The position numbers and the translations under genes are program-made. The notes below the pieces were generated by a model, which had not been told where the DNA came from, did not search any database, and saw only the letters and a list, made by a program, of their open reading frames with translations. Shown piece after piece: positions 14,859 through 44,432 of a stretch of DNA of 64,000 bases. The stretch spans positions 868,001 to 932,000 of the forward strand of contig NZ_QQRS01000001.1 of assembly GCF_003428875.1 (NCBI RefSeq). The letters are read 5' to 3'. Source of the DNA: Planomicrobium okeanokoites. GTDB lineage: Bacteria > Bacillota > Bacilli > Bacillales_A > Planococcaceae. Positions within the stretch are counted from its first letter, which is position 1; the number at the start of each line of letters is the position of its first letter.

Positions 14859-15530
14859 TCAGATAAATCTTTTTAGGTATCCATCATAAATCTTGCGCAT
14901 GACTTTTGGTGTGTTCTCCAGGTAAACACTGATTTGTTCCATGTTCGATTCAACTTTGTCTCCGTTTCTTTCATCTGTCGGAAAATCGGATATCCCTTTG
15001 ATGATGATGCACTCAATATTATTTTTCCTGCAGATATAAGCAATGGCGCCCGCTTCTGTATCAGCAATGGTAATATCGTTTTCTTTCAGCTCTAGATAAT
15101 CCTTCCACATCACAACTGCTTTATCGGCGGTGGCAATTGTTCCAGTATGAAAATCATTACCGTATTCAGTTAAAGTGATATCGACTATGAATGATGGTTT
15201 GATAAGCGGCTCAATCTCTTTTACTGTACAGTCATATTGAACTGCCCGATTGGGGACGAAAATATCTAAATTGCTGAACTGGTCATCTATTCCGGCACAT
15301 GTCCCGGCAACAATCACTTTAGTTAATTTAAATTCAGAAATCATATACTGTGTACCACCGACACCGTTTACTTTTCTTATCCCGCTGCTATAGAAAACCA
15401 GTTCAGCGTCATTAATCGTCCTCATAAAATACTCACCATAAGGATAGCCGAAACGTTCGTTTTCTTTTACGTTAAAGTATTCCAATGTCGCTTCAAATTC
15501 CCAATTTGTCGCAATACATATCCCTATCAT
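14859..15530 (-). CDS. Nucleoside phosphorylase-like protein (MTA/SAH nucleosidase family)
   Basis: 223 residues of the PNP/UDP phosphorylase fold. Family marks are the glycine strand VIVAGTCAGIDDQF (about 70-83) and the purine/ribose motif TEAGAIAYICRKNNI (about 158-172) followed by KGISDF with the catalytic Asp. The family hydrolyses or phosphorolyses nucleosides such as methylthioadenosine. The N-terminus is divergent from typical MtnN, so substrate is open. GGTGAT site before the ATG. Single gene; the long VWA operon ends about 100 bases further on in the same direction, so read-through is possible. Confidence 0.72.
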   Translation of the reverse strand: MIGICIATNWEFEATLEYFNVKENERFGYPYGEYFMRTINDAELVFYSSGIRKVNGVGGTQYMISEFKLTKVIVAGTCAGIDDQFSNLDIFVPNRAVQYDCTVKEIEPLIKPSFIVDITLTEYGNDFHTGTIATADKAVVMWKDYLELKENDITIADTEAGAIAYICRKNNIECIIIKGISDFPTDERNGDKVESNMEQISVYLENTPKVMRKIYDGYLKRFI

Positions 15531-15629: not shown

Positions 15630-18212
15630 TTATTTGCTGTTCCGTTGCTTGGCTTTCAATAACTGCTCAATGCCGTCATTGGCATTGGAATCTGATTGTA
15701 TTGGCGCTTTTTTAGGCAGCGCCGGCATTCTCAATCCGAACCGGCGAATTGTGATATCCGCGAAAAACAGCAGCATGGCTAAAAGAATCAGCGGCAGTGT
15801 AATGGATTGCATGGATGAGCTGCTATAAGGAATATCCCTGAAAGCATCATCCAAAGATTCCAGGACCTGACCGCCGCTTCTTTCCGCAATTGCGGATAAT
15901 AGCTCCACATCCGCCGGTTCACTGCGGTACTCCTCACCATAAGGAATGGTAAGGCCGCTCCGGTAAGCCGCTCCGGTTTCATTGGAAACACTGAAAAATA
16001 CGAGCCCTGGTTCCTCTTCCATATGGACATCGATTACGCCTGGCGCCACCGGCTCTGTCTGAACTTCAATTTCTTCACCTGTTTCGTCGATGACAGCAAC
16101 ATTTAGAATAGCCGAGGATTGGCTCGGATCTTCTATGGTGTATACTCCTTGCTCTTTACGGGTGATGGCAAATGGGGCTTCGTCAAACGACGGCAGAATC
16201 CTGGATATGCTGCGGTTCCAAAATGCCGGCCAATTGCCCCATTTTTGAAATTCGCCGCTCCATGCTCCACTGCCGGAAGTGAATGCCAGCGCTTTTCCAA
16301 GACCATAATTCCATTCCGCCAGAATAGGATCCCCTTGTTCACTTTCCGCTGCAACTCTGGCCGTATCTTTGGCAGTAGTCGCTATATAGCTGTTCATCTG
16401 TGGAATTCCTTCAGCGAATAAAGGGCTCCATGCGCTGTCATAAATCAAAGGATAAAAAGGTTCATCCACAATGTAAGTGCGAGACATCATAATGGTCTCA
16501 CGCGACAGGATTGCCGGAATCGTTGACGCATCGGTAACATCGTAGAACCGTCCACTGCCGCTGTCTGCCAATGACTCAAGCAAAGCCCTGTCCGCATCCT
16601 GTCCGACAGCGACAGTCGAAAGGGTGATGTTATTGTCTGAGCCTTCATCAATCAGACTGTAATAATCATTTTGAGTAGCTGATTGGCCGTCCGTCAACAG
16701 AATAATATGCTTTCGCTGAAGATCCAATTCTTCCAACTGACCATATGCTTCAGCCAGCGAAGAATAAATTTCCGTTCCGCCGCCAGGGGCTACTGTGAGA
16801 ATGTCATCTATCGCCTGCTGGCGGTCATCCAGTTTTTGTGTCGGAACGATTTCCCATGGTTTATCATCAAAGGCGATGACTCCGACCACATCATCTTCCC
16901 TCAATAACTCTACTGAACGGGCAGCGGCTTCCTTCGCTAATTCCATCTTTTGGCCGGCCATACTGCCGGAGCGGTCCATCACGATCACCAAGCCAAGTGA
17001 TGGCAGCTCATGCTTCCCTTTCACTTCCATTTCAACCGGCAGAAGTTCTTCAATCGGTGTTTTGAAATAACCGCCGAGCCCGAAACTCCGGTCGCCTCCG
17101 ACCATCATGAAGCCCATGCCGAACTCTTTGACTGCCTGCTCGATGACGGCCATAGTCTGTTCCCCGACCTCGGTGCCGGACACATTGTCAAAAATTATCG
17201 CGTCATAAGCCAGAATCGAAGACAAGTTTTGCGGCAGTCCGGCAGGTGATGTTTCCACTAAATTCAAATTTTCAGCATCCAATAAACCCGTCACCGGACT
17301 TGTGCCTTCATTGCTGACAATCAATATTTCCGGCGGCCCTTCCACTTCTGTGAGACTCGTCAATCGATTGTTCTGAAGAAATCCGTCTCCACCTATTTCA
17401 ATTGCCGCTTCGAATTTCAGCAGCCCTTCACTTTGTACCGCATATTTATGTGACAGGATATTTCTGCCTTCTTCTAAAGTCACTGGTATCCGTTCTATTT
17501 CCACATCGTTGGCGGACAGGATCAGTTCCCCTTCGCTCTGTTGGTCTGCTTCGCTTATCATGCTGAAATCCAGCTCTTCTCCAAGAAATGCCTGGGCAGG
17601 TGTGGTGAATTCCGTTAACGCCGCTTCATTGCCTGCAGGCGGTTCTATCGGAAGGACATCGACTGTCACCCGTTCACCATTGATGCGATCAATACTTTCA
17701 AGTGCGGATGACCGGGTTTCATTGCCATCACTTAACAGGACAAGTCTTGTAGCCCTATCGATATCTCCGGTGTTTGCCGCCAGTTCCAGTGCCTGCGCAA
17801 TATTGGTATGCTCCGCTCTATTGGCCGTCATTTCAGCAGGGAGCCCGTCTGGATCAGATGATAAAGGCATCAATGATTGAAAATCTTCAGCGAAAGTGAA
17901 TACGCCGGCAGATTGATCAATACCTTTACCAGCCAATGCCCGATTCAGCTGTTCTTCTATTCCATTTTCAGCCTGTGACATTGATGAGGAGCGATCCCAT
18001 AGAAAGAGGATCTGCTCATCTTCGATAGGCTGATGAATAACCGGTGATGCTAAAGCGGTTACCAATAAAAATACACTGAGCAATCTGAGTATGAACGATG
18101 TTCGGAAAAGTGTATTGGCATTCCGATAATGCTTCCATCCTGTCAATAATAAATAAAGCGCTGCAGGAGCGAGCAATAACAGCCAGAAAGGTTCATCCAA
18201 ACGAAGTTCCAC
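15630..18212 (-). CDS. Large membrane protein with two VWA domains and a glutamine-amidotransferase-like domain
   Basis: 860 residues. Two N-terminal membrane helices (about 8-25 and 38-60) precede a VWA-like domain with MIDAS start DRSSS near residue 73. A GATase-like region follows (DAIIFDNVSG ... MMVGGDRSFGLGGY, about 330-390). A second VWA domain has the full MIDAS motif DRSGSM near 415 plus TDGQSATQ. A C-terminal helix (about 808-825) anchors the end. Last gene of an eight-gene operon, overlapping the previous VWA gene by 20 bases. BatA/BatB-type proteins partner MoxR ATPases; the substrate is unknown. Mature domains should face outward. Confidence 0.8.
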   Translation of the reverse strand: MELRLDEPFWLLLLAPAALYLLLTGWKHYRNANTLFRTSFILRLLSVFLLVTALASPVIHQPIEDEQILFLWDRSSSMSQAENGIEEQLNRALAGKGIDQSAGVFTFAEDFQSLMPLSSDPDGLPAEMTANRAEHTNIAQALELAANTGDIDRATRLVLLSDGNETRSSALESIDRINGERVTVDVLPIEPPAGNEAALTEFTTPAQAFLGEELDFSMISEADQQSEGELILSANDVEIERIPVTLEEGRNILSHKYAVQSEGLLKFEAAIEIGGDGFLQNNRLTSLTEVEGPPEILIVSNEGTSPVTGLLDAENLNLVETSPAGLPQNLSSILAYDAIIFDNVSGTEVGEQTMAVIEQAVKEFGMGFMMVGGDRSFGLGGYFKTPIEELLPVEMEVKGKHELPSLGLVIVMDRSGSMAGQKMELAKEAAARSVELLREDDVVGVIAFDDKPWEIVPTQKLDDRQQAIDDILTVAPGGGTEIYSSLAEAYGQLEELDLQRKHIILLTDGQSATQNDYYSLIDEGSDNNITLSTVAVGQDADRALLESLADSGSGRFYDVTDASTIPAILSRETIMMSRTYIVDEPFYPLIYDSAWSPLFAEGIPQMNSYIATTAKDTARVAAESEQGDPILAEWNYGLGKALAFTSGSGAWSGEFQKWGNWPAFWNRSISRILPSFDEAPFAITRKEQGVYTIEDPSQSSAILNVAVIDETGEEIEVQTEPVAPGVIDVHMEEEPGLVFFSVSNETGAAYRSGLTIPYGEEYRSEPADVELLSAIAERSGGQVLESLDDAFRDIPYSSSSMQSITLPLILLAMLLFFADITIRRFGLRMPALPKKAPIQSDSNANDGIEQLLKAKQRNSK

Positions 18213-19926
18213 GGCGGTACACCTCCCATTCCACCAGCATCAACATCAAAATCAACAAAAGAATCACGGGAATCAGTGAAAGCTGCGTTATATTTTCCGA
18301 TTCCACCGGTGTTCCAGCTGTAAAGTTCTGTCCAGCTGCCAGGTTTTTTTCTTCATTATTTAATTGTACGATGAAATTTTTGGTTTCATCACCGCTGACT
18401 GCACGGTAAATTCCAGGTTCTCCAGGTGCCTGAAAACTGCCTTCCCCTTCGATGTATGAAGACTGATATTCGTCCCCTTTAAAAATTTCCCATTCGCCCG
18501 ATGGAGAAGCCAAGGCAATTGCCCGCTGTTCTTTAGGCGAGAACGTGCCGATATAATTTTCACTGCCAGACAATTCATCGACTGCACTCCAAAGAAATAG
18601 AGGGAATGACGGACTCAACGGCCAATCTGTCGCTTGTATATCCGCGAGAACGATGATATCCCCTTCAGGCGACAGTTGTATGAACGGTTCCCCGCCTACC
18701 GTCGCCACTGTTTCGAAGCCATCAAATCCCGGATAGATTTGGGAGACGAAAACATCTTCCATTGGCGCATACGCAAATAAAGGATGATCGACAGTTTCGA
18801 CAGATCCCGTGGCTTCCACAGGTGATTCATCATCCCTGCCAATCAATAAAACAGGTACTGGCTCTTCAACCAGATCGCTTTGATTTGTCACAAGAGGACT
18901 TTCTGTGAAACTGGTCAATTGATCTGTTGCAGCAGTATTTACTTGAATACCAAGCGAATCCAGTCCTCTCGCGACGAGTCCGTGCAGCCTATTATCGATG
19001 ATAACGGTACCTGTTGGCCTATTGATATAAGCAAATGCTTCGTTATCCAATATGTATTCATCATTTACATCCAGTGCAGCCTGCCAAATTTCCATTTTCG
19101 GTAAATTTTCAAAAGGGATTAATTGCTCTTCACCCGGCGCCAGCTCAATATCTGCAATTTCTTTAAACTCATCTCCGGCCAACTCAAGTCTGCCTGTTAC
19201 CGTTTCGGCACTATCATTGAATAACTGGACAATGGCACGGTCAGTTGTTTCGCCTTCGGCCACTCCGAATTGGAGTATCGAGATATTGGAGGGTTTTTCA
19301 TTATTCGCATGAACAACATAAGCCGCTCCGGTTTTATTGGAAAGGATGGTCCTGTCTAAAGAGTCTGTGAAGATATGGATTACTGCTGAATCATCATTTG
19401 CAAGTGTTTCAGCAAATAACAGCGTTTTCTCCAGTTCAGGTGACTCGTAACCGAGCTCTATTGCATTGATGACCCTATTCAGCCGCACTGCCGATTGTTC
19501 CATACTGGCAAGAATTTCCGGCGTGGTTCCCGCATTGATGATGGTCACCGGTTTGCCTTCCGCCTTTTCAGCCATTTCTTTCATCAGCTCTTTTTGTGAT
19601 TCCAGCTGACTGGGTGTACCTGCCAGCATGGATGCAGATGTATCGATGACGAAGATGAATTCCCCTCCTTCGAGACTGTCCGACTCGAAATAAGGATTAA
19701 GCAGAGCAAATACAAGCAGTAAAAGAGCTGCAAGCTGCAGATAAAAAAGGGCATGATGCTGCAATTTTTTCAGATAAGGCGATGCCTGCATCTCCTTCAT
19801 CACTTGCTGCCAATATAATATAGAAGAAACTTGCTGGTCTCTGTATTTTTTTCGGTACAGATAGTAGACGATAAGAGCAATGGGCATTACAAGCGTCCAG
19901 ACCATTCCCCAGTTTGATATTCCCAT
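18193..19926 (-). CDS. BatA/VWA-type membrane protein
   Basis: 577 residues. It begins with the BatA N-terminal layout: one helix (about 8-24), a soluble stretch with SSILYWQQ, a second helix (about 60-80), then a VWA domain starting FVIDTSASM (MIDAS DxSxS) near residue 92. The middle (about 220-510) is a beta-rich extracellular region, and a final helix (about 543-563) returns to the membrane. Spaced 11 bases from the DUF58 gene and overlapping the next VWA gene by 20 bases, so it is co-translated. Likely a metal-dependent adhesion/assembly component handled by the MoxR ATPase of the operon. Confidence 0.8.
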   Translation of the reverse strand: MGISNWGMVWTLVMPIALIVYYLYRKKYRDQQVSSILYWQQVMKEMQASPYLKKLQHHALFYLQLAALLLLVFALLNPYFESDSLEGGEFIFVIDTSASMLAGTPSQLESQKELMKEMAEKAEGKPVTIINAGTTPEILASMEQSAVRLNRVINAIELGYESPELEKTLLFAETLANDDSAVIHIFTDSLDRTILSNKTGAAYVVHANNEKPSNISILQFGVAEGETTDRAIVQLFNDSAETVTGRLELAGDEFKEIADIELAPGEEQLIPFENLPKMEIWQAALDVNDEYILDNEAFAYINRPTGTVIIDNRLHGLVARGLDSLGIQVNTAATDQLTSFTESPLVTNQSDLVEEPVPVLLIGRDDESPVEATGSVETVDHPLFAYAPMEDVFVSQIYPGFDGFETVATVGGEPFIQLSPEGDIIVLADIQATDWPLSPSFPLFLWSAVDELSGSENYIGTFSPKEQRAIALASPSGEWEIFKGDEYQSSYIEGEGSFQAPGEPGIYRAVSGDETKNFIVQLNNEEKNLAAGQNFTAGTPVESENITQLSLIPVILLLILMLMLVEWEVYRRGTSFG

Positions 19927-19937
19927 TCCCCTTCACC

Positions 19938-20798
19938 TCACCTGATCCATTTTTGTTTAAGCAATTGGTGTGAAAAAACGTGCTGGATTCCATCTTCGAT
20001 ATGCACCGGCATATACTGAATTCCATATCTGCGGCATAAAGCCTGCAAGCCATCCAGGTGTTCCACCCTTTTTCGGTTGTAATCATTTATCGTTTGCGCT
20101 GACATTGACACATTGAAAGCATCTGAACTTTCATCATCGATCAAGCGCAAATCTCCTTGGAATAAAGGCTGTCGTTCCTGTTCATCGGATAGATGAAGAA
20201 AACGGATATCTTTTGAATATTTAGCGGCTCTGCTGAAAAACCGCTGCCACTCTTCCAGCGGTTCGAGGGCATCCGATAAAATGAATAATACTGTGGAATC
20301 TTTCGATTGGTTTAAATCCGCGATTTCTGCAAATCTTTTTTCATTCGCTTCAGGCAAGGTGGCAATAAAGTGATTGAATAATTTTTGTGCGGACTTCCCT
20401 TTCCTTCTAAGCGGTGGGTGCTCTCCCTGGCCAATTGAAAAAGTGAGCTTGTCATCGTTCAACAGCACGATGGATCCCAGCGAAAAAGCGAGCTGTTTAA
20501 CAAACAGCCATTTGCTTTTCATCGATTTGGAACCGTCAACCATGATATGTACCCGCATTTCCTGTTCATCCAGGAACCGCTTTATGTAGACCTTTTCTGT
20601 CCTGGCATAGACGTTCCAGTCAATATGGCGGACGTCATCGCCTGGATGGTATTCCCTGAAATCGGAAAAATCCATTGATGAACCGAATCGCCGTGATCGG
20701 CTTGAACCTTTATGATGTCCTCTTATTTTTGATTTGGTGGCAATCGAATGCCGGCCGAGACGCGACACCCAGTGCTCAGGCAATTGAAGGAAATTCAT
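19938..20798 (-). CDS. DUF58 protein (VWA-related MoxR partner)
   Basis: 286 residues, soluble. The DUF58 signature is plain: FSDFREYHPGDDVRHIDWNVYART near 43-66 (family pattern R-Y-PGDD-R-IDW-AR), followed by a degenerate VWA with DGSKSM near residue 88. DUF58 proteins are almost always encoded directly after a moxR gene. Here its ATG overlaps the MoxR stop by 4 bases. It is one of two DUF58 genes in the window, the other at 36163. Role: probably a client or adaptor of the AAA+ ATPase; no enzymatic activity is evident. Confidence 0.9.
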   Translation of the reverse strand: MNFLQLPEHWVSRLGRHSIATKSKIRGHHKGSSRSRRFGSSMDFSDFREYHPGDDVRHIDWNVYARTEKVYIKRFLDEQEMRVHIMVDGSKSMKSKWLFVKQLAFSLGSIVLLNDDKLTFSIGQGEHPPLRRKGKSAQKLFNHFIATLPEANEKRFAEIADLNQSKDSTVLFILSDALEPLEEWQRFFSRAAKYSKDIRFLHLSDEQERQPLFQGDLRLIDDESSDAFNVSMSAQTINDYNRKRVEHLDGLQALCRRYGIQYMPVHIEDGIQHVFSHQLLKQKWIR

Positions 20799-21787
20799 CG
20801 GTTTCGTCCTCGCCCTGCAGCGTCCAGCACCTGCTCGATCAAAAGATCAATGTCCGCCCCTTCAACTTCACCTTCATAATTAAGCAATAGCCTGTGCCTC
20901 AAAACCGGTTTTGCGACATATTTCAAATCCCCGATCGAAACGTGGTAGCGTCCTTCTGTCAGCGCGCGTGCTTTTGCAGTCCTGATTAAACTTTGGAGCC
21001 CTCGGGGACCGCTGCCATATTGCACAAAACGGATAATATCTTCGATTTCAGTCTGCAGCGGATCTGTACTCTGAATAATATCCACAGCAACCATCAGAAT
21101 GTCATCAGCGATCAGAACTTCTTTGGCAAGCTGCTGGGCGGCGATCAACTCTTCGGCATCCATCTGTTTCCTCAATAGGATTTGTTCCGTGCCCGTGGTT
21201 CGCCGCACAATCTGTGCCAGCTCTTCACGTGACGGCGACGGAATTTTAATTTTGCATAGGAAACGGTCCATCTGTGCTTCCGGAAGCGGATATGTGCCTT
21301 CCATCTCTATCGGGTTCTGGGTAGCCAGCACAAAAAACGGCCGCGCCATACTTTTGGTGTCTCCAAGAACAGTGACAGTTTTTTCCCCCATCGCCTCCAG
21401 CAACGCACTTTGTGTTTTCGGTGTAGTTCGGTTAATTTCGTCAGCAAGCACCATCTGACTGAATATCGGCCCTTCACGGAAAGTGAATTGCTGCTTGCCA
21501 GCCGCATCTCTTTCTATCAAGCTGGTTCCGGTAATATCAGATGGCATCAAATCCGGCGTGAACTGGATTCTTGAAAAGGAAAGGTCCAGCACTTCCGCTA
21601 TTGTGCGGATGAGCATCGTCTTGCCCAGACCCGGCAATCCCTCCAGCAATGCGTGGCCATCGGAAAGAATCGCGTAAAGCGAAAACTCGACCGCTTCTTC
21701 TTGGCCGACGATAAAGCGGCCGATTTCTTTTCTGACCTGTTGAAGTTTCAAGCTCATTTCCGTAAATTGTTCCGCTGTCACTGTCAT
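20795..21787 (-). CDS. MoxR-family AAA+ ATPase (large VWA operon)
   Basis: 330 residues. Walker A is GLPGLGKT (about 48-55), Walker B MVLADEINR (about 111-119), sensor 1 LATQNP, arginine-finger region EAQMDRF, and the C-terminal lid with GPRGLQSLIRTAKA. MoxR ATPases act as chaperones for the maturation or metal loading of VWA proteins. Three ATG codons run together (21793, 21790, 21787); only the last has proper spacing from AGGG. It is followed by DUF58 and two VWA proteins with overlapping frames. The second MoxR in the window, at 37319, is a distinct paralogue. Confidence 0.93.
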   Translation of the reverse strand: MTVTAEQFTEMSLKLQQVRKEIGRFIVGQEEAVEFSLYAILSDGHALLEGLPGLGKTMLIRTIAEVLDLSFSRIQFTPDLMPSDITGTSLIERDAAGKQQFTFREGPIFSQMVLADEINRTTPKTQSALLEAMGEKTVTVLGDTKSMARPFFVLATQNPIEMEGTYPLPEAQMDRFLCKIKIPSPSREELAQIVRRTTGTEQILLRKQMDAEELIAAQQLAKEVLIADDILMVAVDIIQSTDPLQTEIEDIIRFVQYGSGPRGLQSLIRTAKARALTEGRYHVSIGDLKYVAKPVLRHRLLLNYEGEVEGADIDLLIEQVLDAAGRGRNR

Positions 21788-21805
21788 CATCATCCCTGCT
21801 TTCGA

Positions 21806-23236
21806 TTATTCACCGTCAATCGATGAAAAATATTGTTCAATTATATTTTGAAGATCCGGAGGAAGTTTCATGCGATTAGCGCTTGAAAAATAGGAATAGC
21901 TGTAAGATCCCACCACTTCCTTATACGGACGGACAGTTCCGCGCTCAGCATCCACAGCTCCTTCTTCGAAGGAACCTGTTTCACCTTCCGATAGTTCCCC
22001 ATTGTCGACGGTTGTTTCACCACTTCCGCCAATTCTTGAAGGGATGCTCAGCATTTCCCTGCTGCCCTGGCCAGTTCCAGCTCCAGCACCCGGATTCGAT
22101 CCTTCGCCGGCACCGCTGCCTTGACCCTGTCCTGCGCCAGATCCTTCTTCACCATCTCCTGAAGAATTTTCACTGCCTTCACTGCCCTGACTGGAACCTT
22201 CGCCTTCTGCTTCACTGCCACCGCCTTGTTGTCCGGCAGTGTCTCCTTCGCTTGAATCTCCCGCATTTTCACCTCCGGCCCCTTCAGCTTGTTCCCCGTC
22301 CGTTTCGCCGCCTGATGCAGCATCTTCGCTTCCGGCTTCACCATTTGCGCCATCCGCATCTGATCCGGAGCTTTCTTCCGGCTCTCCTGAAAGATTGTTC
22401 GCGGCTATTGATTGCTGAAGATCAAACGCTACAGGTTTTCCCATTTCGCTTAGAGCTGTTTGTGTATTTCCAGCTTGCTGAGCCAATTGCTGAGAAGCAT
22501 CTCCAAGTTCTTCAGCTTCTTCTGTGGCCTGCTTGGTGCCTTCGCGCTCTTTCTCCCGCTGTTTCAAAGCTAATTCTTTTTGTTTTTTCACTAATTCACG
22601 CAAAGCTTGTTCCGGTGTTTCACTTTCGTTTAACTTTTTCTCCAGAGATTCAAGGTCCTGCTTAAGCTCTGGTGAATCAGCCAATTCTTTTTGCTTCTCG
22701 ACCTTTTCAATCATTACTTCCACCAACTCCTGCTCGCGCTCAAGATCTTTTGCTTCGAGTTGTGCAGAAGCAGGGAATAATCCTGAAATCACTATCAAAA
22801 TCAACAGACTGAAAATGGCCAAAAGCCATTTAGGTGAAAACCATTCATCTTTCTTCTCTTTAAATAACCGATAACTTAGATGGATATCCTTTTCGGTGCG
22901 TTTCGCCAAGTCTCCGGCCAAATGATTGCCAATAGGCAGTTGGCTCAAAGTCAGCAATTGGTTATGCGGAGTGAATTGATCCAATTCACTGATCGCCTGC
23001 TGACGACGCGGAATTTTAGATATAGTGGCCAGCACCACTGTAAGCATTGTGAGGGCCGCTGCAATATATGCATAAAATTCATAATAAGGAAAAACGGACA
23101 GCCGTGAAACGACCATGATCAATAACGCAGAAGCCAGACCTAAGCACAAAGCAATCTGCAGGATTCTTATCAGATATTGCAGTTTCAGTCGTCGGTTTGC
23201 CTTTTTGATGAACAAAGTGATTTTTTGGCTGTCCAT
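21806..23236 (-). CDS. Membrane protein with coiled coil and Gly/Ser/Glu-rich extension, MoxR operon
   Basis: 476 residues. Two helices near 20-38 and 52-70 and a third near 135-155 anchor it. A Glu/Lys-rich coiled coil follows (about 160-245), then a long low-complexity region of Gly, Ser, Glu and Gln (about 265-400). A conserved-looking tail has RPYKEVVGSYSYSYFSSANR and LPPDLQNIIEQYFSS. This tail resembles those of poorly characterised membrane proteins that accompany MoxR clusters, but I do not know a name. It sits between the ABC permease (12 bases) and MoxR (12-18 bases). The low-complexity part may be a flexible extracellular spacer. Confidence 0.75.
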   Translation of the reverse strand: MDSQKITLFIKKANRRLKLQYLIRILQIALCLGLASALLIMVVSRLSVFPYYEFYAYIAAALTMLTVVLATISKIPRRQQAISELDQFTPHNQLLTLSQLPIGNHLAGDLAKRTEKDIHLSYRLFKEKKDEWFSPKWLLAIFSLLILIVISGLFPASAQLEAKDLEREQELVEVMIEKVEKQKELADSPELKQDLESLEKKLNESETPEQALRELVKKQKELALKQREKEREGTKQATEEAEELGDASQQLAQQAGNTQTALSEMGKPVAFDLQQSIAANNLSGEPEESSGSDADGANGEAGSEDAASGGETDGEQAEGAGGENAGDSSEGDTAGQQGGGSEAEGEGSSQGSEGSENSSGDGEEGSGAGQGQGSGAGEGSNPGAGAGTGQGSREMLSIPSRIGGSGETTVDNGELSEGETGSFEEGAVDAERGTVRPYKEVVGSYSYSYFSSANRMKLPPDLQNIIEQYFSSIDGE

Positions 23237-23248
23237 AATGCATCCTCC

Positions 23249-24088
23249 TTATCTGTATTTATTCATATTCACCCGCAATTTAGTTACTGACAGCCATATC
23301 GCCCCTACAAAAATCAGCGTGTAGAAAATCGAATAACTGACCCATAAAGGCAACGGAATTCCCGTCATTTGAGCAATTTCATCGCTGAACCCAGGTTCCA
23401 GCAAAGTCAGCAGAACCACCCCCGGGTTGATGCATGCCCAGAAATAACTGAGCGGAGAAGCACCAGTCCCCATCGTTGCTGACGAAAGGGAAACCGATAG
23501 AATCAGAAAAAATCCCGTTACCGCTGTCAGGAAAATCATCGTACCATAAGTCGAAATCATTGAGACAATCGTTCTGCGCAGCAATGTTGAATACATGACA
23601 CCCAAAGCGCCGATGACCAATAATGTCAAAAAGTAGAATAGAAAAATGCTTGCTATCTGGCTTGGTGCCACGCCTCCATATAAAAACACCATACTATAGA
23701 TAGGCAGCCCTGACACAAGAAGCAGCAGCAAAAATGCAATCGATGACAGCAGCTTGCCGAATATGATTTGAAAGCTGCTTTGTGCAGTCGTCAGCAGGAT
23801 ATTCAAAGTTTGTTTTTCACGTTCGCTGCTGACTGTTCCAGCGGTAAGACCCGGCGTAATGAAAAGTATCAGCCCCAACTGGATATAACTCAGCATGCTG
23901 AACAGCATAAAACTTTCTTCAGGACGGAAAAAGCCGCTGCCTGAAATTGAACTGGTCAGGTTTATAAAACCAAAGACAAAAATCCCCATAATCAGTAGAT
24001 AAAAGAAAAGACCCGTAAAACTCTTTATATTCCGGAATCGTAATTTAATTTCCTTTACCAGGACTGGATTGGCCAGGAGCTCCTTCAT
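23249..24088 (-). CDS. ABC-2-type transporter permease
   Basis: 279 residues with about six membrane segments. N-terminus NPVLVKEIKLRFRNIKSF and the loop TPGLTAGTVSSEREKQTLNILLTT (periplasmic/extracellular start of an ABC-2 domain, about 82-105) are typical of ABC-2 exporter permeases. Its ATG overlaps the ATPase stop by 4 bases, so the pair forms a single exporter with the protein at 24085. Substrate unknown; the surrounding VWA/MoxR genes suggest export or assembly of a surface component. Confidence 0.87.
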   Translation of the reverse strand: MKELLANPVLVKEIKLRFRNIKSFTGLFFYLLIMGIFVFGFINLTSSISGSGFFRPEESFMLFSMLSYIQLGLILFITPGLTAGTVSSEREKQTLNILLTTAQSSFQIIFGKLLSSIAFLLLLLVSGLPIYSMVFLYGGVAPSQIASIFLFYFLTLLVIGALGVMYSTLLRRTIVSMISTYGTMIFLTAVTGFFLILSVSLSSATMGTGASPLSYFWACINPGVVLLTLLEPGFSDEIAQMTGIPLPLWVSYSIFYTLIFVGAIWLSVTKLRVNMNKYR

Positions 24089-25020
24089 AGGGTTTCAGCT
24101 CCCTTCGTAATTTCCATGAATACATCTTCCAGATCTGTTTCTTCTTCTGAAAATGCGAGTATGGGCAAACCTGCAGACATCGCTTTCCGCAGCAAGTCCA
24201 ATTGGTCATGTTCTGTCCCTTTATACAGGAACTGCAGAATGCCCCTGTCCTGAATTTCGGTGATTTGCGAAACCAACGGGTCATTTTCAAAAAATCGGAT
24301 CGCTTCAATATAATCTCCTGTCAATTTCACGCTTATGACTTTTTCACTTTGCAGTTTTTCCTGAATACTTTGAACGGAACCGTGAGCAATCAGTTCACCT
24401 GAATCGATGACGCCCAAAGTATCGCACATCTCAGCCAGTTCAGGCAGGATGTGGGAAGAAATCAGGATCGTTTTGCCCATCGCTTTCAACTCTCTTAGAA
24501 TCTCCCTCATTTCGACTCTTGCTCTGGGATCCAAACCCGATGCCGGTTCATCAAGTATCAAAACCTTTGGATCATGAATCAAAGCCCTGGCAAGGCAAAG
24601 CCTCTGTTTCATCCCCCTCGATAACAAATCCACATAATCATTGCGCTTACTGGATAAATTGACCAATTCAAGCAATTTCGGAATCAATACGGCTCTTTGC
24701 GCAGCGTCCAAGCCATAGCTCGCCCCATAAAAATCCAGGTATTCTTCTGTCTTAAGCTGATCATAAACTCCAAAGAAATCCGGCATATAGCCGATTTGCT
24801 TCCGTACTTCATGAGGATGGAGTGAAATATTGATGCCATTGATCCAAGCTTCTCCGGAAGTAGGCTGCAGCAGGGTCGCCAAGATTGAAAAAGTTGTGGA
24901 TTTCCCTGCGCCATTGGCGCCTACAAAACCGAACACTGTTCCTTCTTCGATTGACAGATTCAAATCTTTCAGCGCATAGAAGGAGCCATATTTCTTAGTC
25001 AATCCCTTTATTTCGATCAT
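24085..25020 (-). CDS. ABC transporter ATP-binding protein (exporter type)
   Basis: 311 residues. Walker A GANGAGKST (about 34-42), signature LLSRGMKQRLCLARAL (LSRGM, common in ABC-2 exporters), Walker B VLILDEPASGLD, switch His ISSHILPEL. A C-terminal extension of about 90 residues matches CcmA/YtrB-like exporters. The start overlaps the stop of the 787-residue exported protein by 4 bases, and its stop overlaps the permease start. Energises the partner permease. Confidence 0.92.
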   Translation of the reverse strand: MIEIKGLTKKYGSFYALKDLNLSIEEGTVFGFVGANGAGKSTTFSILATLLQPTSGEAWINGINISLHPHEVRKQIGYMPDFFGVYDQLKTEEYLDFYGASYGLDAAQRAVLIPKLLELVNLSSKRNDYVDLLSRGMKQRLCLARALIHDPKVLILDEPASGLDPRARVEMREILRELKAMGKTILISSHILPELAEMCDTLGVIDSGELIAHGSVQSIQEKLQSEKVISVKLTGDYIEAIRFFENDPLVSQITEIQDRGILQFLYKGTEHDQLDLLRKAMSAGLPILAFSEEETDLEDVFMEITKGAETL

Positions 25021-27380
25021 TGGCCGATCACTCCTTCCAGTTCAATTTTCGGTACAGTGATTTCCGAGTAACCGGTCAGCTCATTTTTGATGATCCGTAT
25101 TTCTATGTTTCCATCAGCTGAAATATAATCACCGCTGTTTTCTGATAAATCATTGGCACCTGCAGCTAAAGATTCATATTCTCCGGTATCTGTCCGTAAA
25201 ATCGAAAATTCCACATCTGTCGCACTTGATTGCGTTTCGAAACGAGACCATTCAGCATCCTGTTCGGCTAAAGCATCCGGCAACTTGTATAAAACCCGAT
25301 ATTCCCCGGGTTCCAAGCCATAAAAATGAGGATTATCCGGATATTTTTCGACATGTCCCATTGTGTTTTGAGGCTGAACGTCAATTCGGAAATTATCAGA
25401 ACTGATTGCAACTTCGCCATCAAAATTCATTTTCGGTTCAAAACTCTGCGCAAGCAGATGGACCGCAGATATGTTCGCCTCCTGATCTTCCAAGCTCACG
25501 GGGGCAATTGCCGTGTCAGCATAAGCGATTAAATATGGTGTAGAAGCGTCTTTGCCAAAATGCTCGTATGACATCGCCAAAGCACTCTGTTTCCTCGCTT
25601 CGATCAATTCTTCTCCGCTTCCGGAGATGTTTTGCGGCATCTGATATTGGGCTATCGGTGAAATGGGCTGCAGTAATTCTGACTGGACGGTTTCAGCAAT
25701 CTGCTTTTCTTCATCAGGATTGAAATCACCTAATGAGATCAGTCTCGTGCCTGTCCAGACCGCTGCATCTTTAACAGAGAAAGGGAATGAATTTTTTATC
25801 GTGCCAGTCAGATTTCCGTTTTCCATTGCCAATTGGATATCGAACTGACCGCTTCCGCTTATATAGGATTCCCCTAATACTGATGCCACCGACCAATATC
25901 GCATATCTCTTACCGTCAAGGTGGAGTCGGCCGCCCCATTTTCCAAAATCGCATTTTGATGGGTGTTGGCCGATGAAAATTGGTCACCGGTTGTAGCAGT
26001 CATTGTCGTATTGGCGGGTGCGGTGAATCGGTAATCTCCGCTGCGGTTCGATAATAAAGTGCTCATGTAATATCCATTCAGACCGCCATCGCCATCCACT
26101 TCAAAAAATCCGGTTTGCTGGATTTGCGGATTTGCGATTCTGTCTTTGGCGCCTGCTGCAAAAATTCCTATTGACGCAAGAACAGCGATCACCGGGATTG
26201 CCAGCCAAGCATATTCCCTTTTGTCTTTTTTAATAAGAAAGATATATAGTACTGGAACAACGATTATGATATACAAAAGAATAATCAGGAACATCGCCGT
26301 TTTTGATACAGCGAAACTTTCAAATAACTCATTAACCATTCCGATTTCATAAGACATTCTTTCTTTGATCGACTGATCCTGCTGAATTGCAGTTGAATTC
26401 TGGCCAGCGTCAACTAAATTCACCAGTACCCCTTCATATCCATCCTGGGAGACGACTGGCTCATCACCCAGTGAAAATGCGGTTTGAATAATTGCTCCTG
26501 CCCCTACATCTTTTTTAACTGCCAGGATCTGCCCATCATCCTCAAGCAACACACGGGCATCCTCGTCGACTTCGGCCTGATAAACCGGAATGGGATTCTC
26601 GAATCCTGAAACGGTCGCCTCTTCTGACGAATTGAGCTGCATTGGTAGCAGTTCAGTTAAGTTGCCTGCAGCAGCCGTTAAATTGCTGTCAGCGCCTACA
26701 AGGATTTCTCCTCCCTGCTCGAGCCACACCATAACGGCTTGCTGCGTTTCTGCGGAAAGATCACTATACGGAAATTCATCAATGATTAAATAATCCAAGG
26801 TGTCCCAGGCAAGCGGGTCAGAAGGCAGAGTATTTTCACCATCCGAGTTAAAATGGAATACTTGGGCATCCGCACCGTTCACCGGTAAATATTCACCTAT
26901 ACCGCGCAACCGGTCAGCGTTTTCAGTCAATGTTGCGACAAATGGGATCTCCGGCATGAAATAATTGGGACGCAAGGACTTACTTCCTTGAAAATCGATT
27001 GCGTCTCCTTTTTCCCAGCCGCCTTCATAAACATAGATAGTTTGATTTGTCACTCCGCCGGAATAACTGTTGTCCATCATACCCGGCAGCGACAGGCTGA
27101 ATGTTTTGGTTTCCCCCGCCGCTAAATCCAGGGGCACGGTTAATCCTGCTCCAATGTTATAGCTTTCGGAATAATCAATGACAAGGTCTCCTGAAAACGC
27201 CGTGCCGTTATTGGAAGCTGTTATCTGCAACGGGACGCCCCTGTTGTATTTAACTTTATTTTCGAATCCTGCTTCCGCATCAATCGTAATATCAGCTTCG
27301 GCCGATGCGAGCGTCGGATAAGCGCTGAACAGCAACCATGCAGATAAAATCATGAATGAAATTGATATTGGTTTTTTCAT
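25017..27380 (-). CDS. Large exported/membrane protein, first gene of the ABC-MoxR-VWA operon
   Basis: 787 residues. A signal peptide (about 1-27, ending ASAEA) is followed by a beta-rich domain (about 30-130). A GATase/ThuA-like segment comes next (DYLIIDEFPYSDLSAE, VWLEQGGEILVGAD, about 200-235). Two membrane helices lie near 362-384 and 392-411, then a large extracellular C-terminal region. I do not recognise a named family. It overlaps the ABC ATPase by 4 bases and leads the operon; a G-rich site (AAAGGGGGG) precedes the ATG. A TTTACA box lies about 60 bases upstream, but the -10 is poor. Probably works with the exporter and the VWA proteins at the cell surface. Confidence 0.72.
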   Translation of the reverse strand: MKKPISISFMILSAWLLFSAYPTLASAEADITIDAEAGFENKVKYNRGVPLQITASNNGTAFSGDLVIDYSESYNIGAGLTVPLDLAAGETKTFSLSLPGMMDNSYSGGVTNQTIYVYEGGWEKGDAIDFQGSKSLRPNYFMPEIPFVATLTENADRLRGIGEYLPVNGADAQVFHFNSDGENTLPSDPLAWDTLDYLIIDEFPYSDLSAETQQAVMVWLEQGGEILVGADSNLTAAAGNLTELLPMQLNSSEEATVSGFENPIPVYQAEVDEDARVLLEDDGQILAVKKDVGAGAIIQTAFSLGDEPVVSQDGYEGVLVNLVDAGQNSTAIQQDQSIKERMSYEIGMVNELFESFAVSKTAMFLIILLYIIIVVPVLYIFLIKKDKREYAWLAIPVIAVLASIGIFAAGAKDRIANPQIQQTGFFEVDGDGGLNGYYMSTLLSNRSGDYRFTAPANTTMTATTGDQFSSANTHQNAILENGAADSTLTVRDMRYWSVASVLGESYISGSGQFDIQLAMENGNLTGTIKNSFPFSVKDAAVWTGTRLISLGDFNPDEEKQIAETVQSELLQPISPIAQYQMPQNISGSGEELIEARKQSALAMSYEHFGKDASTPYLIAYADTAIAPVSLEDQEANISAVHLLAQSFEPKMNFDGEVAISSDNFRIDVQPQNTMGHVEKYPDNPHFYGLEPGEYRVLYKLPDALAEQDAEWSRFETQSSATDVEFSILRTDTGEYESLAAGANDLSENSGDYISADGNIEIRIIKNELTGYSEITVPKIELEGVIGQ

Positions 27381-27446
27381 TCCGTCCCCCCTTTTCTCTC
27401 TATTAATTAGTACGCATCAACTGTAAAATAGTTCCTTAGTCTGGAA

Positions 27447-27481
27447 AAAGAAAAAGCGGACAGCATAATGCTGTCCGCTTT
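27447..27481 (-). terminator. Terminator of dapH-dapL
   Basis: 13-bp stem AAAGCGGACAGCA / TGCTGTCCGCTTT with a 3-base loop and T-rich tail, starting right after the dapL stop codon. It separates dapL from the long operon downstream. Confidence 0.88.
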
Positions 27482-28597
27482 CTACTGTTCACTGAAATAA
27501 CGGCGAATGAAACCAGGCATGAAATCAAGGATTTTTTCATCAGGATTAATTTTTGAATGATGAAGCCCGAATTCCGAATTCACTCCCGCCCAAAACATCA
27601 AACCTGGTATCTGCTCAGTGAAATAGCCAAAATCTTCCCCGGTCATCGCGGCATCTGCGCGGACAGCTGTGATGCCATCGGCCGATGAGGCAAACTCCAG
27701 AAAATGTTCAGCCAATTGCCCGTTATTATCAACTTCCCGATAAGAAGCTCCGTAATCAATTGAAATATGGCAATTATAACCCGTTTCCACCGCTTTACAA
27801 ATGGCTTCTATGCGTTCTTTCATTTTCAGCATGGATGTATTATTCAACGTTCTGATGGTGCCTTCCAATCGGGCATTTTCAGCGATGATATTCTGGACGG
27901 TGCCGGCTGTGAATTTGCCGACCGTCAAAACCGCCGAATCCATCGGGTTGATGTTGCGGCTGACAATCGTCTGGAGCTGCATTAACAGTGATGCGCCCGC
28001 CACTGCCATATCTTCCGTCAAATGCGGAAATGCTGCATGGCCGCCTTTCCCATGTAAATCTATAAAAAGTTCAGATGTATTGGCGAATAACATTCCCGGT
28101 TTTGTTGAAACCGTCCCCACAGGCAGGTCAGGTGCGATATGCATCGCGTAGATTTCATCCGGCCACAAATCCGGCCGCTCGTTTTTCAGCCATTCCCTGA
28201 AAGGCAAAGCACCGCCCGGCCCTTCCTCCGCTGGCTGGAAAAGCACAAGCACATCCTGCTTTATCGGGTCTTCGATAAGTCGCTTAAGCAAACCGATTGC
28301 ATTCGCCATATGGATATCATGGCCACAGGCATGCATATAGCCTTCATGTGTGGAACGGAAGTCAAGCCCCGTATTTTCTTCTATCGGCAAGCCATCGATA
28401 TCAGTTCGCCACGCGATGAGCTTGTCTGCATCCAGTCCGTTCACTTTCACTGCAATGCCTGTTTGCCATTCGGTAATTTCCATTCTATCTTGTGGCATTG
28501 AACGAATTTGTTCGAGCAGGTATTGCTGCGTTTTAAATTCACGGAAACCGATTTCCGGTATTTTATGCAAATCTCTTCTGATTTGTATAAGATCCAT
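27482..28597 (-). CDS. dapL: N-acetyldiaminopimelate deacetylase
   Basis: 371 residues of the M20 amidohydrolase family. Metal-binding residues appear in HACGHDIHMA (about 86-95), FQPAEEGPGGA (about 120-130) and MTGEDFGYF near 320. The sequence follows B. subtilis YkuR/DapL. It removes the acetyl group from N-acetyl-LL-diaminopimelate in the acetylase branch of lysine synthesis. The start at 28597 (MDLIQIRRDLHKIPEIG) has AAGGA 7 bases upstream; the frame stays open to 28660 inside dapH. It starts 10 bases after the dapH stop, so the two form an operon. Confidence 0.92.
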   Translation of the reverse strand: MDLIQIRRDLHKIPEIGFREFKTQQYLLEQIRSMPQDRMEITEWQTGIAVKVNGLDADKLIAWRTDIDGLPIEENTGLDFRSTHEGYMHACGHDIHMANAIGLLKRLIEDPIKQDVLVLFQPAEEGPGGALPFREWLKNERPDLWPDEIYAMHIAPDLPVGTVSTKPGMLFANTSELFIDLHGKGGHAAFPHLTEDMAVAGASLLMQLQTIVSRNINPMDSAVLTVGKFTAGTVQNIIAENARLEGTIRTLNNTSMLKMKERIEAICKAVETGYNCHISIDYGASYREVDNNGQLAEHFLEFASSADGITAVRADAAMTGEDFGYFTEQIPGLMFWAGVNSEFGLHHSKINPDEKILDFMPGFIRRYFSEQ

Positions 28598-34954: not shown

Positions 34955-36166
34955 TTAAACATTTTCCCTAAAAAAATTTTCATTTATTTTTTCCAGCTCT
35001 TCTACAAAAGGAGAAGCTTCCCTGTTTTCTATAAGTCCGTTGCTGTATCGTACTTTATCGTACGTTTTAAAAAAGGATTCAGTAAACGGCAATGCTTCAC
35101 GATTCGCCCATTCCCTGACGGTTTCATGTTCCAACCGTCCCTTTTCGGCAATAAGCGCTTTTTGTTCAAATTCCCTGAAGGCTTTTCGGATTTCGTGGAT
35201 ATTGACCAGATTATACCCTCTGGCTGGTTCAGGTTCTTCTAATTTTTCGGCAATCTCAGAGAAACGGCTGATTTCAGCCACGGATTCCTCTTTTTGATTG
35301 GCAACATCAGGTTTGATCTTCCGAATCAGCAGAATTCCAATAATCACCGCAAGGACAATGCCAATACCTGCAAGGATTGTATAATCAAATTCCAGCCCTC
35401 CCGAATAAGGAAGGTCTTCCGGCTGCTCTGCTTGTTCTTCCATATTGCTCAGATTATCCAGCATCTCTTCCTCAGTGGAAAGTCCATTTATAAAATTTAC
35501 CAGCCAATTCAGCACACCGGCGAACGGCCATAAGACAATGGTCAGGATTCCACCCAGAACGGAACCAGCCAAATGCCGTATTTCATCGGCAAGTATATGG
35601 AAGAGGAATGCAGCCGAACTGGCTATTGCGATGATGCCGGTCGAAGCGGCAATTGCCTGCCATAGTTTCGCGCCTTCCTTCCGTGCATTCAGGTAGCGGT
35701 AAAATAATCGCGACACGGTGTAAAATATAATCGCAGCTGCCGCTGTCGGAAACAACAGAAGCTGTGAACTGCCCAGTGGATTAAATATACTTAAAACCAG
35801 TGAGATGGTGAAGATCACCAAAAACATGATTAAAAAGAAACTTTCTCCGCTGTTTTTATCTTCGAGCTCAGAAAACCTTGCATGCAGCCGGTACAAGGAA
35901 ATTATTGTTAAGACAATGAAAGTTCCGGCAGTCACACCGGCAAGCAGCGCTAATGCCATAACCAAACCTGCGGCAATCAGCACAGGTGTCGGATTGTAAG
36001 GTTTTCGCCAGCTGACGGCTGCTGCTGTCAGGGCTGTTGCCATAGCCAATCCCAGCCAGATTAATACCAAAGGGAACCTGGCACCGGCATCGATAAACAG
36101 AAATACAAACGAGATGAGGAAAGCGTCCTGAATATATGCGGTGACTGATGAAAACCTGGCAGTCAT
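34955..36166 (-). CDS. Membrane protein with C-terminal DUF4129-like domain
   Basis: 403 residues. About eight membrane segments fill residues 12-240 and one more lies near 283-300. A soluble C-terminal domain follows (about 325-400: HEIRKAFREFEQKALIAEKG, HETVREWANRE), resembling DUF4129 found at the C-terminus of YebA-type transglutaminases. The transglutaminase domain itself is absent, and the protein is about half the length of YebA. ATG at 36166 overlaps the DUF58 stop as ATGA, so translation is coupled. Third gene of the moxR-DUF58-DUF4129 operon. Confidence 0.78.
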   Translation of the reverse strand: MTARFSSVTAYIQDAFLISFVFLFIDAGARFPLVLIWLGLAMATALTAAAVSWRKPYNPTPVLIAAGLVMALALLAGVTAGTFIVLTIISLYRLHARFSELEDKNSGESFFLIMFLVIFTISLVLSIFNPLGSSQLLLFPTAAAAIIFYTVSRLFYRYLNARKEGAKLWQAIAASTGIIAIASSAAFLFHILADEIRHLAGSVLGGILTIVLWPFAGVLNWLVNFINGLSTEEEMLDNLSNMEEQAEQPEDLPYSGGLEFDYTILAGIGIVLAVIIGILLIRKIKPDVANQKEESVAEISRFSEIAEKLEEPEPARGYNLVNIHEIRKAFREFEQKALIAEKGRLEHETVREWANREALPFTESFFKTYDKVRYSNGLIENREASPFVEELEKINENFFRENV

Positions 36167-37317
36167 GCAATCACCCGCCCTTCGCTTGTGCGCAGAATTT
36201 TCAATTCTGTTTTCCTGCTCCACTTCGGAATATACTTACGGATACTCTCAACATTGTCTGTCATAAGATAAGTCGTATAAGGCAGCTCCGTATGAAGGTC
36301 GAGATGTGCAATCATCGAAGCGAATGGCATGGTTGAATTGTTTTTTGAAATAACCGACAGAAGCTCCAGGGCATGCTGCCTTTGCCTGCCGCCTTCCCCC
36401 GGTGCTAAATAAAGAAAAGGGATCTTGCCTGCGGACCGTACATTTATCGCAATGGCATAAGGCACCCCTTCGCTGAAGCAATTTTCGATATAAGAAGCCA
36501 ACTCTTCTATTCTTTCTTCCAGATTGGAAATTGCCGCATAGCGGTCGGCGACATTCAACACAAAAAGCATCGCTTCATTCGCTACGTGATTATAGACCTT
36601 CGTTTGATAGGTCTGCATCCGGGCACTTGCTTTCCAATGGATTTGATTGAATTGGTCTGTCGGGACATAATCCCTTGTGCCGATCGGCTGGAATAAATCT
36701 TCGAAAAGCGAATGCTTCAAATTGAATTGCCCGGGTTTCTGTTTTGACGGCGCGTATCGAAATTGATATTTGCGGAGTTTCGGGTAAACAAGCTGTTCCT
36801 GCAGGATCATCCCCCCATATTCGAGCATCAGGCTGCCCTGTCCGAATGGATGCGGAATCGATAGCTCCATTTTCTTAATGCGGGACAAGCCCCGACGTTT
36901 GCCTGTTACCGGAACTTTTAAAACCACCGATTCTTTATGACCTGCCGTAAAAGGGATATCGAGCTCAACCAGTTCTGTATAGCTGCCGGCTTCCTGCCCT
37001 GCCGGAACGACTGTATCGATGAACCAGATTTTCAGGTTCCCTCCCCAAATTGGCAGCCCTTTATTTTCAAAAGACAACTCCCAATTCGAGTCTCCGCCAT
37101 TCAATACTCTTTTTCTGATTTTAGGATTATTGAAAATAAGCTTATCTCCCAGCTTTGAAAAATAAGCCAATTGCAGTGCTACAATAAATCCGATGAATGC
37201 CGTAATGGCAGCAGCTGTAAATTGAAGAAATACCATAGACATAAAGAACAGGACGATTATGAAGCCGAAAGCCCATTTAGTGTTTTTTATACCGTAATCA
37301 TGGCGGATCCAAGTCAT
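36163..37317 (-). CDS. DUF58 protein with N-terminal membrane hairpin
   Basis: 384 residues. Two close membrane helices (about 15-50) and then a cytoplasmic/beta-rich part, with the DUF58 core GTRDYVPTDQFNQIHWKASAR near residues 218-238. The B. subtilis counterpart is YeaD. The ATG at 37317 lies one base after the MoxR stop. Typically co-encoded with MoxR, as here. This is the membrane-anchored form, unlike the soluble DUF58 at 19938. Confidence 0.87.
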   Translation of the reverse strand: MTWIRHDYGIKNTKWAFGFIIVLFFMSMVFLQFTAAAITAFIGFIVALQLAYFSKLGDKLIFNNPKIRKRVLNGGDSNWELSFENKGLPIWGGNLKIWFIDTVVPAGQEAGSYTELVELDIPFTAGHKESVVLKVPVTGKRRGLSRIKKMELSIPHPFGQGSLMLEYGGMILQEQLVYPKLRKYQFRYAPSKQKPGQFNLKHSLFEDLFQPIGTRDYVPTDQFNQIHWKASARMQTYQTKVYNHVANEAMLFVLNVADRYAAISNLEERIEELASYIENCFSEGVPYAIAINVRSAGKIPFLYLAPGEGGRQRQHALELLSVISKNNSTMPFASMIAHLDLHTELPYTTYLMTDNVESIRKYIPKWSRKTELKILRTSEGRVIA

Positions 37318-37318
37318 T

Positions 37319-44299: not shown

Positions 44300-44403
44300 C
44301 CGGTTCACCTCTTTCATTCTTCTCATTAATATTGATTGTAACGAGAATTGGAAAAAATGAAAAGAATGAACAGAATGAATAATTTTTCCTTCTATAATAA
44401 TAA

Positions 44404-44432
44404 TTCGGTGCAGTACCCCTTTTTGTGAGGGT
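44404..44432 (-). promoter_or_regulatory. Candidate sigma-I autoregulatory promoter
   Basis: On the minus strand ACCCTC (44432-44427) and CGAA (44407-44404), about 19 bases apart. These resemble the ACCCCC / CGAA boxes I remember for Bacillus sigma-I. The spacing has not been checked and a TATTAT-like box is also nearby, so a sigma-A promoter is possible too. Confidence 0.35.

Follow-up and report, generated by a model that had tools for sequence, protein, structure and literature searches.

An eight-gene operon of Bacillota that joins a likely ABC exporter to a MoxR-DUF58-VWA module

What an ABC exporter and a MoxR-type ATPase with VWA proteins might do together is the question raised by eight genes of Planomicrobium okeanokoites, which lie in a stretch of 64,000 nucleotides (nt) of its 3.3-Mb genome, hereafter the window. 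Calling of open reading frames on the window placed them at 15630-27380 of the minus strand as a single tight unit, confirming an earlier note that had described eight co-directional, closely packed genes. Neighbouring genes overlap by 4, 4, 4 and 20 nt, as that note had it (4-20 nt), and are otherwise separated by 12, 12 and 11 nt, where gaps of 11-18 nt had been stated. We number the genes g1 to g8 from the upstream end (Table 1). The operon consists of two modules with the boundary between g3 and g4: the trio g1-g3, which is likely an ABC exporter, and the MoxR-DUF58-BatA-VWA quintet g4-g8. Our preferred explanation, to which we assign a probability of roughly 0.45, is a conserved two-module operon with a predicted promoter of the extracytoplasmic function (ECF)-sigma, that is envelope-stress, type; a motor of MoxR and DUF58 in the cytosol would remodel a VWA membrane complex that assembles or drives a GldFGA-like ABC exporter. 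Among the matches listed from the open-licence literature, no characterised operon with this content was found, in line with the earlier note, which knew of no characterised version with an ABC-2 exporter.

It is mainly an asymmetry of co-occurrence that leads us to regard the exporter as the client of the quintet. Among 261 genomes of the order, g1 was found in 202 and g8 (E <= 0.001) in 192; 11 of the g8 matches were weak (E 5.7e-5 to 3.4e-13) and were set aside as other VWA proteins, leaving 181. Both genes were present in these 181 genomes, g1 alone in 21 (part of which may be draft gaps), neither in 59 and g8 alone in none. Thus, in the genomes searched in this order, the quintet follows the exporter. 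When 20 Planococcaceae loci were hand-picked from the 202 g1-positive genomes for spread over genera, 17 had all eight genes in order, including L050 with shortened frames for g3 and g8, and the other three had g1-g2-g3 without g4-g8; g5-g6-g7-g8 were adjacent in 17 of the 20. Relatives at 32-75% identity keep the gene order and most of the overlaps. The overlap of g1 and g2 is 4 nt in most loci and that of g7 and g8 is 17 or 20 nt in 16 of 17, and the gap between g3 and g4 is 11-15 nt in 13 of the 17 complete loci and 65-150 nt in the other four.

The earlier note placed this layout in Bacillales, which understated its range, as Clostridia carry the operon too; its treatment of the eight genes as one set was borne out by the genomes that keep them in order. 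At the class level (299 genomes), 32 genomes outside the family had a strong g8 match (E 4.8e-132 or better), with a g1 match at most 12 kb away in 31 of them and on another contig in one. All eight genes in order were carried by 12 of the 13 loci fetched from these 32 (in L064, one of the 12, g2 and g8 are each split across two frames), and all 16 loci picked from the 54 class genomes with g1 and no strong g8 have a complete g1-g2-g3 alone; at least three contigs are shared between the sets (L048/L093, L059/L111 and L063/L112). Moreover, in a scan of named genomes with g8, the best 80 of 378 matches, with taxonomic groups assigned from the record titles, contained the complete ordered set in 27 of 28 Bacilli, in 14 of 28 other Bacillota (only 17 of these 28 loci reach 9 kb upstream of g8, and 14 of the 17 are complete) and in one record titled Calditrichales. 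Four further loci of non-Bacilli Bacillota (L116, L149, L150 and L158) hold all eight as fusions. No full set was seen among the loci of Planctomycetota (9), Chloroflexota (5), Poribacteria (3), Verrucomicrobiota and Armatimonadota (2 each), Acidobacteriota and Methylomirabilota (1 each), several of which are short contigs. The g5-g8 core is therefore wider than Bacillota, and the union of trio and quintet marks Bacillota among the loci examined. The record titled Calditrichales bacterium (L128) encodes Clostridia-like proteins and has, by eye, an ECF-like element; its title may be wrong.

These distributions could also be produced by two machines sharing only a promoter, namely an envelope exporter that needs no partner and a MoxR/VWA module of the Bat type serving a client of its own, both answering envelope stress. 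The trio stands without the quintet in 19 fetched loci (the 3 and 16 above) and g1 without g8 in 21 of the 261 genomes, and the core occurs without a detected trio outside Bacillota. On the other hand, none of the 181 genomes of the order with strong g8 is without g1, the g3/g4 gap is short in 13 of the 17 complete loci, and a single gene order across classes would not be expected from co-regulation alone, so that we hold this possible alternative to be rather doubtful. The earlier note had considered that the ABC pair might belong to a different, unrelated unit that has a promoter and a terminator of its own. This was not seen, all gaps within the operon being at most 12 nt (internal promoters are not excluded by this spacing), yet the ABC genes together with g1 do form a separable module in 3 of the 20 loci and in 16 of the 16 picked trio-only loci.

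To call protein families, we used Pfam gathering scores and NCBIfam curated cut-offs; membrane topology was deduced from hydropathy and charge bias, and the structures are single-chain predicted models. In the trio, g2 exceeds the gathering score of ABC_tran, and its NCBIfam matches, drrA (244.6 bits) and GldA (TIGR03522, 223.2 bits against a cut-off of 402.6), are both below their curated cut-offs. The g3 protein has six hydrophobic segments, matches three ABC-2 membrane families at E 3.4e-5 to 3.8e-4, none reaching its cut-off, and is weakly GldF-like (TIGR03518, 32.8 bits against 288.5). Neither g1 nor g4 has a Pfam or NCBIfam family above cut-off; the top match of g1 among named genomes, at 98% identity, comes from P. 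okeanokoites, in keeping with a Planococcaceae genome. g1 begins with a signal-like helix (by eye), followed by a beta-sandwich, transmembrane helices at 365-383 and 393-411 and a second ectodomain, and its predicted model contains an IFT52-like GIFT/GATase1-like domain at about 146-332. GIFT domains, named after GldG and IFT52, are proposed to bind sugars. The trio is likened to GldFGA of Flavobacterium by its ABC ATPase, its ABC-2 permease and its predicted GIFT-domain auxiliary, and a fusion of permease and auxiliary exists here in L116, but the gene order differs and a MoxR quintet is added. Both the GldA and the GldF model stay far below cut-off, so that GldFGA proper was rejected. GldG was missing from the structure lists for g1, which we did not take as evidence against GldG, and the Foldseek matches of g1 to glycosidases arise from its GATase-like part and were not taken as enzyme activity.

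In the quintet, g5 scores 207.9 bits for AAA_3 (cut-off 27) with AAA_lid_2, matches the structure 2r44 (E 7e-71) and has one marginal hydrophobic segment; g6 is above the cut-off for DUF58 and has no transmembrane segment. Thus the features of a MoxR/VWA AAA+ system are present, an AAA_3 ATPase and a VWA/DUF58 protein encoded next to it. g7 exceeds the cut-offs for BatA (41.2 bits against 25.9) and VWA_2 (49 bits against 27) and has one transmembrane segment at each end, and g8 does so for VWA, GATase1_like and DUF7408, with two transmembrane segments at its N-terminus and one at its C-terminus. In the g8 model, the second VWA domain (about 402-580) is nested in a GATase1-like fold (within 294-674); the two GATase-like segments of the earlier note correspond to folds predicted in g1 and in g8. 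No cysteine occurs in the window copies of g1, g7 and g8, so a GATase nucleophile is absent from g1 and g8. Charge bias predicts large ectodomains for g1, g7 and g8, a cytosolic location for MoxR and DUF58, the g4 tail outside and the C-terminal tag of g8 inside. Two metal ion-dependent adhesion sites (MIDAS) are complete and invariant in 17 sequences of g8 (D73-S75-S77-T136-D162 and D413-S415-S417-T480-D508), g7 conserves D95-S97-[ST]99, and the DUF58 site that had been called degenerate keeps a MIDAS-like D88-x-[ST]-x-S92 and D176.

Such sites would also suit a surface sensing or adhesion complex, in which the VWA ectodomains bind an external ligand by MIDAS and signal to MoxR-DUF58, with the exporter as output. 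The completeness of the g8 sites, the fold similarity of the VWA domains to adhesive ones and a weak match of a g8 VWA domain to an NCBIfam sortase-target family (66.7 bits against a cut-off of 551.65) favour it. However, the fold matches reveal no ligand, the Pfam and NCBIfam scans gave no cell-wall anchor family, and g7 and g8 are both predicted to be membrane-tethered, which makes this complex unlikely. The envelope system proposed in the earlier note is retained in so far as hydropathy and charge bias put DUF58 and MoxR inside and the VWA ectodomains outside, with the exporter in the same operon; its adhesion purpose was shown by none of the tests.

One close relative is the Bat operon (Bacteroides aerotolerance), also found in Borrelia, Leptospira and Riemerella, which likewise combines MoxR, DUF58 and a BatA-domain VWA protein according to the parts of the papers cited (PMC5700661, PMC11834572); in the BatA-type protein BB0173, the VWA domain is described in that excerpt to face the periplasm (PMC5700661). 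The Bat operon has BatD and tetratricopeptide repeat (TPR) proteins (BatC, BatE), but a Pfam search of the eight proteins at E <= 1 gave no TPR or BatD family, and the trio, g4 and the nested GATase-VWA protein are extra here. Membership in Bat was consequently rejected, although g7 has both BatA and VWA. The operon is outside the tested sequence definitions of GldFGA and without BatD/TPR parts, yet it works by parts like both Bat and GldFGA. Another relative is the RL3499-RL3502 operon of Rhizobium leguminosarum, likewise a MoxR (RL3499) operon, in which RL3500 is presumably a DUF58 protein, accompanied by two large membrane proteins, and which, to our knowledge, has no ABC exporter trio. In the portions of the literature available, the RL3499 MoxR operon is important for membrane integrity and cell morphology (PMC3893208), and RL3499 and RL3500 are growth-impaired on TY in insertion sequencing (INSeq) (PMC5118466). 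Two further mentions of MoxR, a CenR-linked gene of Rhodobacter in an excerpt (PMC9275681) and an entry in a Flavobacterium gldD table (PMC5682007), were not used as evidence.

How the motor might reach the exporter can be outlined from the MoxR pairs NorQD, CbbQO and RavA-ViaA, which likewise combine a MoxR AAA+ ATPase with a VWA-fold partner; in this operon DUF58 is the predicted partner, and the pair is joined by four membrane proteins and an ABC ATPase. In NorQD, as far as the cited part of the paper goes, a finger enters the pore of the MoxR ring, the partner attaches to the ring by its C-terminus and its VWA domain is rotated by ATP, and the authors presume the finger mode to be general for MoxR-VWA pairs (PMC13036017). 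By analogy with NorQ and NorD, MoxR would use DUF58 as its VWA-type partner and act from inside on a membrane complex of g4, g7 and g8, whose ectodomains may touch one another via the MIDAS sites. The cytosolic tag of g8 would be the grip of the motor on this complex, and the g1-g2-g3 exporter would be its client. The cargo may be an envelope component, possibly a glycan because of the sugar binding proposed for GIFT domains. We put forward, more tentatively than the general explanation, a two-ATPase envelope machine of Bacillota in which MoxR-DUF58 pulls the basic g8 tag and so loads or gates the GIFT-domain ABC exporter under ECF-sigma envelope stress.

Two conserved tails and several fusions are consistent with this outline. 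The g8 tag is of the type LLxAKKR and forms a helix (848-858) in the g8 model; of 83 Bacillota copies, 68 match its strict pattern (61 of 74 once similar tails are removed), compared with 4.2% of shuffled tails. The pattern also matches 10 of 11 copies from Armatimonadota, Chloroflexota, Acidobacteriota, Verrucomicrobiota and 'Calditrichales'. The g4 motif pattern was matched in 69 of 78 Bacillota, 2 of 2 Planctomycetota and the single copies each of Verrucomicrobiota, Poribacteria and 'Calditrichales', against 0.08% of shuffled tails; because the motif also occurs outside Bacillota, g4 is part of the wider core. The patterns for the tag, the motif and the promoter below were written after viewing many of the same sequences, so their frequencies describe conservation and are not independent tests. 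g3 and g1 form a single protein in L116, a metagenome-assembled genome of Lachnospiraceae, and g7 and g8 a single protein of about 1,200-1,540 residues in L149, L150, L153, L158 and L069; these fusions point to a possible g1-g3 complex and a possible g7-g8 complex.

The same type of motor might serve an enzyme in place of a transporter, that is, insert metal into, or remodel, an exported metalloenzyme in the manner of NorQD. One of the proteins of known structure related to g2 is NosF (E 8.1e-38), the ABC ATPase that acts in the maturation of nitrous-oxide reductase, but the ABCA lipid transporters rank far above it (E 7.3e-70), and no metalloenzyme was found among the eight genes or the scanned flanking genes, to which the scan was limited. 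Iron insertion is the job of the best understood MoxR-VWA pair (PMC13036017); nevertheless, we judge cofactor insertion improbable for this operon.

The promoter is where the envelope-stress role enters the argument, since an ECF-like element is conserved ahead of g1. GGAAC-N16-CGTAC is common to the g1 upstream regions (window copy at 27435-27410). Among 48 Planococcaceae loci with both markers, the window included, 39 have the strict form and 42 a looser one, against none and 0.09% of 9600 mononucleotide shuffles, and the spacer is 16 nt in 41 of the 42. A single match in the window is unremarkable, as it is also obtained in 10 of 100 dinucleotide shuffles; the evidence for a promoter is therefore its conservation. 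A related form, AAC[TC]T-N13..15-CGT[AC]T, was found in 11 of 27 loci of other families with g1 and the quintet, and in 0.4% of random windows. Known ECF -35 boxes include GGAACTT for RpoE and ATTGAAACCTTT for SigW in the part of the source cited (PMC8103513), and a rigid spacer is needed by ECF sigmas according to another excerpt (PMC6411747). The operon is predicted from this sequence pattern to be under ECF-sigma control, comparable to a Bacillus SigW-type envelope-stress regulon, although its -35 element is GGAAC, not TGAAAC. The host genome has sigW, above the curated cut-off and with an anti-sigma-like gene behind it; the region ahead of sigW holds both a TGAAAC-N16-CGTA-type and a GGAAC-N17-CGTA element (L179:2040-2200, minus strand). 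It has 24 matches to sigma region-4 domains in all, and the upstream regions were examined at 12 ECF-type loci. Elsewhere in this genome (L172 and L176), GGAACT-N15-CGTA, the operon's own spacing, precedes an ABC ATPase gene and a kinase-like gene, both assigned by eye; matches of this sort do not outnumber the reversed control. The element together with the Rhizobium RL3499 phenotype is our reason for proposing an envelope role.

Several observations weigh against our explanation of a motor acting on the exporter. The promoter element is missing even in its loose form in 6 of the 48 Planococcaceae loci, and the general form in 16 of the 27 other loci. It is not specific to the quintet, because trio-only loci carry it too (loosely in 2 of 3 Planococcaceae; in the related or the Planococcaceae form in 2 of 16 others). 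GGAACT-N14..16-CGTA is not enriched in the host's own genome (11 matches, whereas the reversed pattern has 30), and a longer pattern gave 2 matches against 1 for the control, the second being inside a helicase-like reading frame; no regulon is therefore defined. The g8 tag was found in just 1 of 9 Planctomycetota, in none of 3 Poribacteria and not in the one Methylomirabilota, and 15 of 83 Bacillota copies lack it by the strict pattern. In one class-level genome, G322, g8 has just a weak g1 match nearby (E 1.7e-5). Outside Bacillota, several loci have adjacent g5-g6-g7-g8 and no trio detected in the fetched flank, so that the core may originally have served something other than an exporter. 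In L069 and L135, a g1-like gene and g4-g8 are retained, but a different protein of six transmembrane segments lies between them and an ABC ATPase is missing; these loci represent a reduced variant or else a machine that MoxR powers by itself. Finally, one point in favour of the explanation, the correlation of 0.74-0.96 between the pairwise distances of the eight proteins across 70 loci, was obtained without a control gene and reflects mostly shared ancestry. In each of the two variant loci, an exported protein with ...GIENVPY near its end stands before the operon.

Table 1. Coordinates of the eight genes, conserved sequence elements and variant loci (window positions unless a locus is named)
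Feature	Position	Strand	Description
g1	25017-27380	minus	787 residues; GldG-like exporter auxiliary
g2	24085-25020	minus	311 residues; ABC ATPase
g3	23249-24088	minus	279 residues; ABC-2-type permease, below every family cut-off
g4	21806-23236	minus	476 residues; three transmembrane segments, coiled coil (by eye), Gly/Ser/Glu-rich linker at about 281-396, conserved C-terminal motif
g5	20795-21793	minus	332 residues; MoxR-family AAA+ ATPase
g6	19938-20798	minus	286 residues; DUF58, predicted VWA-type partner of MoxR
g7	18193-19926	minus	577 residues; BatA N-terminal domain, VWA ectodomain, C-terminal transmembrane segment
g8	15630-18212	minus	860 residues; two N-terminal transmembrane segments, VWA1, GATase1-like fold with VWA2 inserted, C-terminal transmembrane segment, cytosolic tail
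g4 C-terminal motif RPYxEV...LPxDLQxIVxxYFSSI	21809-21931	minus	
g8 basic C-terminal tag LLKAKQR	15633-15677	minus	closes the variable tail, predicted cytosolic
Terminator-like hairpin	27451-27483	minus	15 pairs, T tail; follows the dapL-type gene and marks the operon's upstream border
Predicted ECF-sigma promoter GGAAC-N16-CGTAC	27410-27435	minus	about 30 nt ahead of the g1 start codon
Variant operon, L069	11235-13963		244-residue protein, five or six hydrophobic segments, replaces the permease
Variant operon, L135	2296-5065		236-residue protein, five or six hydrophobic segments, replaces the permease

At its borders, g1 starts 70 nt downstream of the hairpin; neither this hairpin nor the promoter element appears in the earlier note. 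This hairpin separates the operon from the upstream dapHL-type genes, which adjoin it in just 6 of the 20 loci (L037, L042, L043, L044, L045 and L053) and were rejected as part of it. At the other end, a nucleosidase-type gene (14859-15530) begins 99 nt past g8 with no terminator-like site in between; it was considered as an additional, ninth gene and rejected, no match to it being obtained in any of the 20 sampled loci.

Membership in a defence system was also considered, as MoxR and VWA domains are named in an excerpt of work on conflict systems that depend on NTP (PMC7159879). PADLOC at E 1e-5 gave no model for six of the eight proteins and, for g2 and g5, matches to the ATPase parts of defence models only, so this assignment was dropped; since the gene order is also kept across classes, we regard a MoxR-VWA system for anti-phage defence or conflict as highly improbable.

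Elsewhere in the window, a second cluster on the minus strand (34955-38254) consists of MoxR (37319-38254), a DUF58-like protein (36163-37317) and a membrane protein (34955-36223), the last two assigned by eye. A further strong MoxR match lies at G000:C21:389272, and the host genome has three strong AAA_3 matches and one weaker match above cut-off in total. At 42327-44440 of the minus strand, a sigma-like gene (296 residues) is followed by a membrane-type protein of 408 residues with a long PGQE/K-rich tail, a candidate pair that we take to resemble SigI-RsgI.

Finally, MoxR-DUF58-VWA operons are widespread, and in our reading of the literature the membrane client of most of them is not known. 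The genomes analysed here supply a candidate client in the ABC exporter, without which the quintet was never found in 261 genomes of the order, as well as a candidate signal, ECF sigma and envelope stress, and a candidate handle, the tail of g8. The trio-only relatives are natural experiments, and with them the question of what a MoxR motor acts on becomes directly testable in Bacillota.

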